Source: an uncultured Treponema sp.
GTDB lineage: Bacteria; Spirochaetota; Spirochaetia; Treponematales; Treponemataceae
Length of the DNA stretch: 41,410 nt
Reading direction: 5' to 3'
Assembly (NCBI GenBank): GCA_946185925.1
Contig: CAMHLH010000002.1
Location: 1-41,410, forward strand
Shown here piece by piece: positions 34,960-39,279 of the stretch; the stretch's first letter is position 1, and every line of letters starts with the position of its first letter. Position numbers and translations under genes: made by a program. The notes beneath the pieces were generated by a model. That model made no database searches, was not told the origin of the DNA, and saw nothing but the letters and a program-made list of their open reading frames with translations.

Positions 34960-35798
34960 AGGACGAACTTCTCCAAAAACCTTCCGACACCGCTGTTGTC
35001 GTTGTCGAATTCCGTCACGAAATCGGCGACCGACTTTATGTGCTCGTTCGCGTTCTTCATGGCGACTCCGTATCCGCACTTTGTAATCATCGACTCGTCG
35101 TTCATTCCGTCGCCGAAGGCCATCGCCTTGGACACTGGAAAGCCGAGCCTCTCGCAAAGCCACGAAACGGACTCGCCCTTTCCGCAGCCGCTCGGCAGAA
35201 GCTCAAGGAAGAACGGCTTGCTCGTGAAAACCACGGCGCGGTCGCCGAATTCTTTCCTCATGCGCTCCATTAGTTTCTGCACGACTTCCGGCGTTTTTGG
35301 GTCGCATGGAACGAGCATTTTTGGAGAGCCTTTGGCGAGCATTGCGGGGTAGTCGTCGACTTTCGCACCCTTCACCTTGCACAAGTCGATGTCCATCTGA
35401 ATCCATGGAGTGAGCGTTCCGTAATGGATTGTGTCGGTCGAATAAATCTGGCTCTGCAGACCGGCCTCGCGCGCCAGTTCGTCAGCCCTCAGCAAAATGT
35501 CCCCCGGAACTTTCTCGCAGAGAATCTGCCGTCTCTCGTGCATGTCGAACACGCTGCAGCCGTTTATGGCTATGACGAAGCGGCCGAACTCGCTCCCCGC
35601 AATCTGCAGCCGGCGGACAAAAGGCGCGATTCCAGCCTCAAGCCGGCCGGAGCAGAGAACGACGTAAATTCCACGCTCGGCGCATTTTTTCAAAGCCGCC
35701 ACATTCTCGTCCGAAATCTCGGCATTGTCGTTCAACAGCGTATCGTCCAAATCCAGGGCGATGAGCTTCACATCAAGTTTCTGATTCTTCGTGCACAT
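34956..35798 (-). CDS. Cof-type HAD-superfamily phosphatase
   Basis: LIALDLDDTLLNDN, VLCSGRL, AMAFGDGMNDESMITKCGYGVAMKNANEHIK; overlaps trkA by 4 bp. Confidence 0.93.
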   Translation of the reverse strand: MCTKNQKLDVKLIALDLDDTLLNDNAEISDENVAALKKCAERGIYVVLCSGRLEAGIAPFVRRLQIAGSEFGRFVIAINGCSVFDMHERRQILCEKVPGDILLRADELAREAGLQSQIYSTDTIHYGTLTPWIQMDIDLCKVKGAKVDDYPAMLAKGSPKMLVPCDPKTPEVVQKLMERMRKEFGDRAVVFTSKPFFLELLPSGCGKGESVSWLCERLGFPVSKAMAFGDGMNDESMITKCGYGVAMKNANEHIKSVADFVTEFDNDNSGVGRFLEKFVL

Positions 35799-35902
35799 AG
35801 ATGAAAGTCTAACACGTTTTCACTGTTCAAAAAAACGATTTCCAACGAGAATTGAGGGCATACAAAAGAGAGATTTCTTAAAGATTCCATAAAGAAGAAG
35901 AG

Positions 35903-35956
35903 TTATCCACATGAGTTATCCACAATTTATCCACAAACTACCGATAGTTATCCACC
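35903..35956. promoter_or_regulatory. cluster of DnaA-box-like TTATCCACA 9-mers overlapping the hrpB start
   Basis: TTATCCACA at 35903-35911, 35916-35924, 35927-35935; TTATCCACc at 35948-35956. Confidence 0.7.
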
Positions 35957-38361
35957 TTGACGAGATATGCGAAAAGCTGAAATCGTCAAAAAGCCGCTTC
36001 CTTGTGCTGACTGCCGAAACCGCCGCTGGAAAGTCCACGGCCCTTCCAGTGGCCCTTCTGAAGCATTTCAAAGGAAAAATACTGATGACGGAGCCGAGAA
36101 GAATTTCCACAGTCGCAGTCTCAAGCAGAATTGCAGAGATAATCGGGGAGGAAGTCGGAAAGACCGTCGGCTACACCCTGCGCATGGAGTCGAAAAAATC
36201 GGCGGAGACACGGCTTGAAGTGCTTACAGAAGCCATTCTGACACGGAAAATGCAGGCAGATCCGCTTCTGGAGGGAGTCGAGGTCGTCGTTCTGGACGAA
36301 TTCCACGAGCGGTCGGTCAACCTTGATTTGTCACTCGCGTTCCTCAAGCAGGCGATGGAACTTCGGGACGATTTGTATGTCGTCGTGATGAGCGCGACAA
36401 TCAACTACCGTTCGTTAGCCGAATTTTTGAGCGCGGAGACGATGCAGATTCCTGGCAGGCAATTTCCGGTGGAAATCGAGTACAGACCTGAAAATGTGGA
36501 TAAATGCCTCTTTTCGTTGCTGACTAACAAACAATCGTTAGTTTATCCACAATCCACCCACAAAAATGTGGATAACTTGTGGATAAATAACAAAATTCTT
36601 GAAAATTCATCTAAAGTCCAAAATACCGAATGCCGAAAAGACACGATTCTAGTTTTTCTTCCAGGGATAAAAGAGATAAACAGGGCTAGGGAGGACATCG
36701 AAAAACGGCTGGAAAAAGACCAGGCCGAAGTTCTCATCCTCCACTCGTCGATACCGCTTTCGGAGCAGAAGAAAATTCTCTCTGAAGTCCCGATTGACGA
36801 GCCAAGAAGAATCATCCTCTCATCCGCAATCGCGGAAACCTCGCTCACGGTGCCTGGCGTCTCCACCGTCGTGGACACAGGTCTCTGCCGCTTGAACAGG
36901 ATGGACATCTCCCTCGGAATGGAAAAACTCGTGACGGAAAGGGAAAGCCTTTTCAGCGCGGAGCAGAGGGCGGGTCGGGCAGGCCGCATCATGGCCGGAA
37001 AATGCATAAGACTCTGGAGCAAGAACGACATCCTGCCGGATTCCACACCGCCAGAAATCCTCCGCACAGACCTTGCGCAACTCGTCCTTGAATGCGCAAA
37101 GTGGGGCGCACAGGACGCAGAGTCCATCGACTGGCTCACGCCGCCGCCGACTTCCGCATGGAAGGCCGCAAAGAATCTGCTTGAAGAGCTGGGACTTTTG
37201 GGGAAAAACGGAAAAATCACACAAAAGGGGGAAAGAGCACTGACGCTCGGTCTTCCGCCTCGGCTTGCCTGCGTGGCACTCTCTGCGGAAAATTCGATTC
37301 CCACCGTCTTGAAATTCAGCGAGTACAAGGACGCTCCAGTCCAACAGCAGAAGGCGTTCCAGGAAGACTTGCGGAGAAGGCTTTCAAGAACCGAAGGGGA
37401 TTGGGCTGGAAAAAGCGGAAAAAAGCGGACCGAAGAGATTTTGCTTTCAGGCTTCCCGGACAGAATCGCGCGAAAAGTCGAATCCAAAGGGGACTTCACC
37501 ACATACCAGTTTCCGTCCGGCAGAAAGGCTTCCATTAAACTAACGAACGGTAGTGAATGGATTGTCGCACCAAAAGTGGACGCGGGCGAGACGACGGGAA
37601 AAATCTACGAATACGAAAATTTGGACACGTCTTTCGCGGAAAAGTGGATTCAAGACAGGGCGGCAATTGAAACGCTCACGACACTCGACGGCGACATGAA
37701 GATGCGGAAGGCGGAAATCACGCATTACGGAAAAATCGTCATAAAAGAGAAGAAGCTCTCCGCGACGGCCAACGACTTTTCGGACGCGGTATGCCAGACG
37801 CTCAAGGAAAAGGGCTTGGGATGGCTTCCTCTTGGAAAAACCGGAGAGGACTTTCTTCTGAGGGCGAAATTCTACGCAAAAAACAAACCCGACTCCAATC
37901 TTTCAAAGAAAATCGAGAGACTTCCTGAAACCGCTGAGGAATGGCTCAAGCCCTTCCTCACATCCACGAAACTCGACGAAAAGACGGTGCTCGACGCGCT
38001 CCGCTACCATTTGGACGGCGGAAGAATTGACAGCGAAGCCCCAACGGAAATCAAACTAACGAACGGTAGGAAACGGAAAATCGTGTACGAAAGGATAGCG
38101 TCGAGCAACAAGGGCGTTGAAGAGAAGATAAGGCCAGTGCTCGAAATAATAATCCAGCAGATTTTCGGCTGCTTCGAGACCCCGAAACTGCTCGGAGTCC
38201 CGGTGCTCTTGAAGCTCCTCTCGCCGGCCCGCAGGCCGCTCCAGATAACAGAGGATTTGGAGCATTTCTGGAGCGGAGCCTGGATTGAAATCTGCAAGGA
38301 AATGAAGGGCCGCTACCCCAAGCACAACTGGGACTACAGGATAGCGGACGACAGCGATTGA
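35911..38361 (+). CDS. hrpB: ATP-dependent RNA helicase HrpB (DEAH-type)
   Basis: TAETAAGKSTALPVALL, DEFHERSVNLDLSLAFL, VMSATI, ILVFLPGIKEI, AGRAGR, and the HrpB C-terminus LLSPARRPLQITEDLEHFWSGAWIEICKEMKGRYPKHNW. Confidence 0.93.
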   Translation: MSYPQFIHKLPIVIHLDEICEKLKSSKSRFLVLTAETAAGKSTALPVALLKHFKGKILMTEPRRISTVAVSSRIAEIIGEEVGKTVGYTLRMESKKSAETRLEVLTEAILTRKMQADPLLEGVEVVVLDEFHERSVNLDLSLAFLKQAMELRDDLYVVVMSATINYRSLAEFLSAETMQIPGRQFPVEIEYRPENVDKCLFSLLTNKQSLVYPQSTHKNVDNLWINNKILENSSKVQNTECRKDTILVFLPGIKEINRAREDIEKRLEKDQAEVLILHSSIPLSEQKKILSEVPIDEPRRIILSSAIAETSLTVPGVSTVVDTGLCRLNRMDISLGMEKLVTERESLFSAEQRAGRAGRIMAGKCIRLWSKNDILPDSTPPEILRTDLAQLVLECAKWGAQDAESIDWLTPPPTSAWKAAKNLLEELGLLGKNGKITQKGERALTLGLPPRLACVALSAENSIPTVLKFSEYKDAPVQQQKAFQEDLRRRLSRTEGDWAGKSGKKRTEEILLSGFPDRIARKVESKGDFTTYQFPSGRKASIKLTNGSEWIVAPKVDAGETTGKIYEYENLDTSFAEKWIQDRAAIETLTTLDGDMKMRKAEITHYGKIVIKEKKLSATANDFSDAVCQTLKEKGLGWLPLGKTGEDFLLRAKFYAKNKPDSNLSKKIERLPETAEEWLKPFLTSTKLDEKTVLDALRYHLDGGRIDSEAPTEIKLTNGRKRKIVYERIASSNKGVEEKIRPVLEIIIQQIFGCFETPKLLGVPVLLKLLSPARRPLQITEDLEHFWSGAWIEICKEMKGRYPKHNWDYRIADDSD

Positions 38362-38860
38362 AAAGTTCTGAATCTATTTTGAAAGCAAATCGCGGATTGC
38401 GAACGCCACGTCCCGAATCTCCCTCTGGGCGTGCGCGTCGCATCTGAGGGCGAAGAATCCCTCCCAGTCGCACGGTCTGCCTGTCATGACGATTACGGAA
38501 GCGGCCGCGTTCGGCAAAATCGCCCTCGCGTCCTCCGCCCGAAGCTTCAGGTTGTCCACCAAGTCGAAGTAGTCGCTCTCGATTCTCTCAAGGCTCTCCT
38601 TGAACCTCGCCTCGATTTTCGACTTCTCCTCGGCCGAAAACTCCTTCACGTCGTCGAAGACCGGCATGATGAAGTCGATTGAGTGCCCGAATTTGTCGCC
38701 TGAGAAATTGCAGTACCGCTGCGACTGCTGCGAGAACGAGAACGCGCGGTGGCGGACAAGCTGGTGGGTGCAGGCGCGGCTGCAGGTGATTTGGAAGGTG
38801 CGGGCAGAATGAGCGTATTCAATCGATTTTCTCTCATCGGCGGAAACTAACGAAAGGTAG
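36405..38860. repeat. dispersed 14-bp word CTAACGAACGGTAG
   Basis: 36405-36418 (minus), 37540-37553 (+), 38056-38069 (+); variant CTAACGAAaGGTAG at 38847-38860 in thyX. Confidence 0.85.
36495..36587. promoter_or_regulatory. second cluster of four TTATCCACA boxes forming overlapping inverted repeats inside hrpB
   Basis: TGTGGATAA at 36495-36503, TTATCCACA at 36543-36551, TGTGGATAA at 36567-36575 and 36578-36586; perfect 11-bp arms TTTATCCACAA (36542) / TTGTGGATAAA (36577). Confidence 0.7.
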
Positions 38861-39279
38861 TTTTCATCGACGATTTTCACGGAAGAACCGTCGACGGCGC
38901 ATTCGTCCTCAAAAAGGAACGGATAAAGCGATTTGAGATGCGGATAGAAAGCCGATTCCGAACCGACATTCTCAAGCCATGCACGGACATTTGCGGAGAC
39001 GAACCTCTTCCCCGCGACCTCCCCGACCGCGAAGAATTTCACGCACTTCGCGCAAGAAGCCAAATCCACATCAGAAGAGACCTCGAAACACACGCGCTCG
39101 TGCTCAAGAACCGACGTGTGCCCGGATTTCGCGATGTTCCTCAAGAATTTCACATACGAGTCGTCGTTGATTTTCGAGTCGGACTTGTAGCAGACCCGAC
39201 CGCAGAACTCCATCTTCTTTCCCGGAGTTTTGTTCACAATTTCTTTTACTGAAGGTTTTACGATATTCATGTACGCCAT
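38374..39279 (-). CDS. thyX: FAD-dependent thymidylate synthase ThyX
   Basis: RHRAFSFSQQS fits RHRX7S; SVLEHERVCFEVS; SRACTHQLVRHR. Confidence 0.96.
   Translation of the reverse strand: MAYMNIVKPSVKEIVNKTPGKKMEFCGRVCYKSDSKINDDSYVKFLRNIAKSGHTSVLEHERVCFEVSSDVDLASCAKCVKFFAVGEVAGKRFVSANVRAWLENVGSESAFYPHLKSLYPFLFEDECAVDGSSVKIVDENYLSLVSADERKSIEYAHSARTFQITCSRACTHQLVRHRAFSFSQQSQRYCNFSGDKFGHSIDFIMPVFDDVKEFSAEEKSKIEARFKESLERIESDYFDLVDNLKLRAEDARAILPNAAASVIVMTGRPCDWEGFFALRCDAHAQREIRDVAFAIRDLLSK

Follow-up and report, generated by a model that had tools for sequence, protein, structure and literature searches.

The locus described here raises the question of why a helicase gene of an uncultured Treponema species should harbor two groups of predicted DnaA boxes within its coding region, one overlapping the start codon and the other translated as part of the protein. 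The stretch of DNA analyzed, referred to as the window, comprises 41,410 nucleotides and represents contig C2 of a source genome of 355 contigs that is 74.5% complete. The helicase product scores 571 bits, above the cutoff, against the NCBIfam model TIGR01970, and its relatives include the HrpB proteins of the named species Treponema berlinense and T. ruminis, which belong to the same genus as the species from which the window derives. The gene, its immediate downstream neighbor, and the features of the two box groups are as follows.

35911-38361, + strand: hrpB, ATP-dependent helicase of 816 aa (NCBIfam TIGR01970; Pfam DEAD, Helicase_C, and HrpB_C)
38374-39279, - strand: thyX
35903-35956, + strand: start-codon DnaA-box cluster, with exact TTATCCACA at 35903, 35916, and 35927 and TTATCCACc at 35948
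35936-35949, no strand: near-palindrome AACTACCGATAGTT, between boxes 3 and 4 of the start-codon cluster
36490-36639, + strand: expanded 50-aa linker joining the helicase lobes, flanked by FPVEIEYRP and DTILVFLPG
36495-36503, - strand: linker DnaA box TTATCCACA, also exact in RGIG6705
36523-36542, no strand: spaced palindrome ACTAACAAACAATCGTTAGT, whose CTAAC/GTTAG stem is common to both sister species
36542-36587, + strand: 11-bp inverted repeat TTTATCCACAA / TTGTGGATAAA, made by opposed boxes
36543-36551, + strand: linker DnaA box TTATCCACA, also exact in RGIG9161
36567-36586, - strand: DnaA-box pair TTATCCACAAGTTATCCACA, with exact boxes at 36567 and 36578 and 11-bp spacing

The preliminary description of this DNA had pointed to an additional in-frame stretch between the helicase lobes, and comparison with Escherichia coli HrpB (6eud) bears this out, phmmer aligning query residues 193 to 244 with chain residues 192 to 216, such that 50 amino acids correspond to a linker of 23 residues, a net excess of approximately 27. 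The GC content of the segment at positions 36492 to 36640 is 33.6%, compared with 51.4% for the gene as a whole. Across the genus, the linker is variable in both length and sequence, being shorter and devoid of boxes in most congeners.

Seven exact copies of TTATCCACA, a genuine DnaA-box 9-mer, are present in the hrpB region, three at the start codon, the first of which overlaps the ATG, and four in the linker, at 36495 (-), 36543 (+), 36567 (-), and 36578 (-), in both orientations as previously claimed; the site at 35948 represents an eighth, inexact copy. These seven are the only exact copies in the window and fall within 0.7 kb, while dinucleotide shuffles of the window yield a mean of 0.10 and a maximum of 2. 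The perfect pairing proposed between the segments at 36542 and 36577 was likewise verified, TTTATCCACAA (36542-36552) and TTGTGGATAAA (36577-36587) being exact reverse complements, and the nested CTAAC/GTTAG pair is indeed present, with GTTAG at 36537-36541 and CTAAC at 36524-36528, one position from the start previously assigned to the latter (36523). Genome-wide, the exact 9-mer occurs 20 times, 7 of which are in the hrpB region; the only other group, of five, adjoins a RepA_C gene, ParA, and iterons. This locus (L114, positions 196 to 2900 of contig C1 of G000), with its ParA gene, RepA_C-type replication gene, CAACAAAACTGTTACCTTT iterons, and five copies of TTATCCACA, has the appearance of a replication origin from a plasmid or chromid.

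Box starts in the start-codon cluster are spaced by 13, 11, and 21 bp. Throughout the genus, box pairs favor start spacings of 11 to 12, 20 to 22, and 30 to 33 bp, a periodicity of approximately 10.5 bp, with which the window's pairs at 11, 11, and 21 bp agree. The hrpB boxes are, as in DnaA-box clusters (DBCs), exact sites grouped beyond chance in a cooperative, helically spaced geometry.

The 161-bp linker segment was searched against 98 genomes and was found to be single copy in its own genome, with one match to hrpB of the RGIG6705 type. Its core, AATGTGGATAACTTGTGGATAA, matches DnaA-box modules of approximately 27 congeners, mostly at 92 to 100% identity over 21 to 31 bp, and the TTATCCACAAGTTATCCACA pair represents the same module as their intergenic clusters. 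The congener modules examined are located downstream of gyrA beside parS or between genes for a STAS-domain protein and a polyprenyl synthase, with some in a few other intergenic positions, and no exact box was observed inside an open reading frame (ORF) in the 28 congener loci examined. The cluster between the STAS-domain and polyprenyl synthase genes is seen as two groups approximately 215 bp apart in many Treponema (loci L134, L136-L138, L140-L146, and L258-L265), and the corresponding locus in the window's genome (74.5% complete) has no exact box pair. In the genus, parS-type sites (TGTTTCACGTGGAACA or close variants of it) follow gyrA and adjoin DnaA boxes, as at L156 (G000 contig C138, 4163-6867) and L165 (7700-8430). 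The possibility that CTAACGAACGG is a highly repeated, uptake-type sequence was considered and rejected, as it occurs in 0 to 5 copies per genome with no excess over a reversed-pattern control in the 98 genomes.

As regards chromosomal position, hrpB lies 9 to 25 kb from dnaA in six relatives (G018, G004, G015, G016, G001, and G060), and in T. ruminis the gyrA/parS region is approximately 50 kb away. RGIG6705 shares the window's gene order around hrpB, and there the gene is 19 kb from the parS cluster and approximately 27 kb from the boxes that follow dnaA. In the window's own genome, which encodes a DnaA protein with the box-binding domain PF08299, the dnaA-gyrB-gyrA contig stops 0.2 kb past gyrA, just beyond a parS-like site, and synteny with RGIG6705 suggests that hrpB is located outside but near the origin. 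GC skew local to the window is weak and noisy. Because dnaA, gyrA, and parS are located elsewhere in every relative checked, an ectopic origin within hrpB was rejected; hrpB lies 9 to 50 kb from the places expected of oriC (the dnaA-dnaN or gyrA/parS region) in these relatives, whose parS-accompanied boxes sit downstream of gyrA or after dnaA. A search for a promoter-like site near the start of hrpB found none, which weighs against the reading preferred below.

The closest orthologs are those of RGIG9161 (86% identity over the best segment) and RGIG6705 (69%). Linker length is identical in the three species, and the start-codon and linker clusters, which had been noted to share a 9-mer, are both present in each of them, with exact boxes numbering 3 + 4 in the window, 2 + 2 in RGIG9161, and 1 + 1 in RGIG6705. 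No ortholog was seen to retain the protein segment without boxes, and close relatives keep the palindrome together with some boxes, contrary to the two findings named in advance as incompatible with a functional element. The RGIG9161 counterpart of AACTACCGATAGTT is the perfect palindrome AACTATCGATAGTT. Both clusters of RGIG9161 encode the heptapeptide YPQSIHK, which suggests that one was copied from the other or that both derive from the same kind of module.

Columns occupied by boxes are more conserved than the rest of hrpB in each of the three pairings, at 94% versus 83% identity between the window and RGIG9161 (p = 0.013), 84% versus 70% between the window and RGIG6705 (p = 0.009), and 81% versus 70% between RGIG9161 and RGIG6705 (p = 0.03; 0.033). 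Relative to the rest of the linker, both pairings that involve the window show the excess (p = 0.013 and 0.02), whereas the RGIG9161-RGIG6705 pairing does not (p = 0.21). Third codon positions agree in the window pairings (p = 0.03 and 0.02). When a comb of the same spacing was slid along hrpB, 21, 10, and 49 of its 560 placements attained the observed identity. Alignment of all three species shows long stretches of the linker to be unchanged, namely GAAAATGTGGA (box 36495), ACTAACAA.CA.TCGTTAG, AAAAATGTGGATA (box 36567), and TTGAAAATTC.TCTAAAG. With p values of this modest size, boxes chosen on the window, and only four and two of the seven boxes exact in RGIG9161 and RGIG6705, respectively, these comparisons provide modest evidence for selection, short of strict selection on each box.

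The CTAAC/GTTAG palindrome of the linker belongs to a 16-bp family, ACTAMCGNNCGKTAGT, of which hrpB carries several copies. Exact CTAACGAACGGTAG occurs three times elsewhere in the gene, at 36405 (-), 37540 (+), and 38056 (+), accounting for three of the four copies in the genome, and thyX carries a copy with one mismatch at 38847.

36404-36419, no strand: ACTA palindrome ACTACCGTTCGTTAGC, in frame (INYRSLA)
37539-37554, no strand: ACTA palindrome ACTAACGAACGGTAGT, in frame (KLTNGS)
38055-38070, no strand: ACTA palindrome ACTAACGAACGGTAGG, in frame (KLTNGR)
38846-38861, no strand: ACTAACGAAAGGTAGT, same ACTA palindrome family, inside thyX

In three closed genomes, ACTAMCGNNCGKTAGT is concentrated near the origin, with 3 of 3 copies lying no more than 25 kb from the gyrA/parS region in T. 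ruminis (binomial p = 5e-6), 5 of 7 no more than 60 kb from dnaA in G060 (p = 3e-6), and 13 of 22 within 300 kb in G092 (p = 1.5e-5), counts which allow at most one mismatch and for which the radii were set after looking. Three quarters of the sites inspected are within ORFs, and in the window, G092, G060, and G115 the family is in several cases found between convergent genes. Several of the hrpB palindromes (e.g., 36404) replace the aligned sequence of relatives with no change in length, which points to an origin by substitution rather than insertion, as would be expected of a binding site acquired in that way. The layout is similar to that of the Noc sites of Firmicutes; however, Noc is restricted to that phylum (PMC7383237), and a putative ACTAMCGNNCGKTAGT-binding protein of Treponema is therefore not assignable to Noc. 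A tentative extension, to which we attach limited credence, is that chromosome proteins dock at hrpB close to the origin, its coding DnaA boxes being accompanied by ACTAMCGNNCGKTAGT sites for an undescribed organizer of the origin domain, much as Noc sites mark the chromosome of Bacillus subtilis; protein sequence in the tolerant linker would then have been given up to DNA-binding sites.

Our preferred reading, to which we assign a probability of roughly 0.5, is that hrpB harbors an origin-proximal DnaA-box cluster of the Bacillus subtilis kind which would have arisen inside coding sequence at a tolerant linker. The leading rival, possible though doubtful, is that a fragment of an origin or DnaA-box cluster was copied into the linker and 5' end of hrpB and is decaying there as a remnant without function. 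Such hitch-hiking would suit a linker which varies throughout the genus in length and sequence, the small number of exact boxes retained by the sister species, the identity of the linker core with intergenic cluster modules, and the resemblance of the two clusters to mutual copies, evident not only from YPQSIHK in RGIG9161 but also from an inverted 20-mer which is 95% alike between them. It is at odds, however, with the slower evolution of box columns relative to both gene and linker in the two window comparisons and with the exactness of all seven boxes in the window lineage.

The mobile-element and RNA readings are weaker. The former, unlikely in our estimation, considers the linker a hot spot for short in-frame mobile palindromes, with the DnaA boxes incidental, and draws on the different palindromes found in other linkers (AACTAACGATAGTT in T. 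ruminis and two metagenome-assembled genomes [MAGs]; also CTACCGACCGTTCGGTAG and AGGGGACAGACCCCT) and on the enrichment of two words in hrpB linkers, ACTAAC (9 in 2.3 kb versus 12 in the remaining 60 kb, which is 26-fold longer; p = 3e-8) and GGGACAG (p = 7e-5), both of which were chosen after inspection. Perfect palindromes with 7-bp arms show a weak excess in these linkers (1.5 versus 0.6 per kb, four events). Set against this are the substitution origin of several hrpB palindromes and the single-copy status of the 161-bp segment in its genome (74.5% complete), of which only the DnaA-box core of the segment matches elsewhere, and on this count the dispersed, Rickettsia-like element proposed previously was rejected. 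Still more improbable is an RNA element, in which hairpins of the hrpB mRNA would control how well this transcript is translated or how long it persists: the linker folds better than shuffled sequences (z = -3.4 in the window, -2.9 and -2.3 in the sister species) and the small CTAAC/GTTAG stem is retained in all three, but RGIG6705 has lost the long hairpin between boxes, opposed DnaA boxes yield hairpins automatically, the start-codon region has a z of only -1.2, and no Rfam match was found within positions 35000 to 38500 up to E = 1. The earlier proposal of an RNA element built of boxes was rejected on the grounds of the unconserved hairpin and the lack of an Rfam match.

Other repeats were observed in hrpB of congeners. 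Palindromes of the AGGGGACAGACCCCT type are in frame in the linker of Treponema MAGs at L192 and L194, the latter with two copies; hrpB of G016 (L170) has an in-frame tandem 12-bp repeat, GCGGAAATAAAA, of approximately seven copies at about codons 500 to 545; and several AAGGGTACAGA / TCTGTACCC words are present in hrpB of G060 (L174) and G001 (L167), those of G060 including a 23-bp palindrome, AAGGGTACAGATTCTGTACCCTT, with a further such word in G060 dnaA.

Returning to the origin-proximal cluster, we propose that three rumen/reticulum Treponema lineages descend from an ancestor in which hrpB acquired boxes both at its start codon and in the interlobe linker, a fast-evolving and structurally tolerant position where they are translated as approximately 27 extra residues. 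DnaA is predicted to bind cooperatively to box pairs one helical turn apart and would thereby be tied up near the origin, as with the oriC-proximal clusters of B. subtilis, while hrpB expression may be dampened by DnaA occupying the boxes at the start codon, which could in turn be bridged to those of the linker, 0.6 kb downstream. The sites themselves, their excess and spacing, their common descent, the closeness of hrpB to the origin in relatives, and the likeness to intergenic modules are observed; binding, titration, bridging, and the effect on hrpB are inferred. If DnaA does bind, the locus would be a clear instance of binding sites for the initiator having evolved within a gene as part of its translated sequence, as well as a lead on how Treponema buffers its supply of DnaA. 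The clusters found across the genus and the origin-proximal palindrome open replication control in this large and little-studied group of gut spirochaetes to direct testing.

Among known systems, the hrpB cluster is unusual in being located within coding sequence and forming part of a protein. Like the Rickettsia palindromic elements, the hrpB linker adds in-frame residues to a protein and has palindromic DNA; those elements are described in PMC10969869 as families of approximately 150 bp dispersed in many genes, in contrast to the single copy in the window's genome (74.5% complete). In E. coli, datA and DARS are chromosomal DnaA-box loci outside oriC which set DnaA activity and whose distance from oriC is conserved (PMC5010248, PMC4585315); they share with hrpB a location outside oriC but, unlike its boxes, are noncoding. 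Sites inside ORFs have been reported in B. subtilis codV and rplB (PMC4447404), the excerpts of which describe no linker expansion such as that which carries the hrpB sites; the rplB site is bound in vitro and not in vivo, perhaps owing to transcription, and the boxes within hrpB may thus likewise be free in vivo. The closest likeness is with the oriC-proximal DBCs of B. subtilis, similarly DnaA-box groups outside oriC yet near the origin, where deletion of six results in early initiation, read as DnaA titration (Okumura et al. 2012, as described in PMC5295017), whereas the predicted sites of hrpB lie in an ORF, overlapping its start codon and partly taking the form of a translated expansion.
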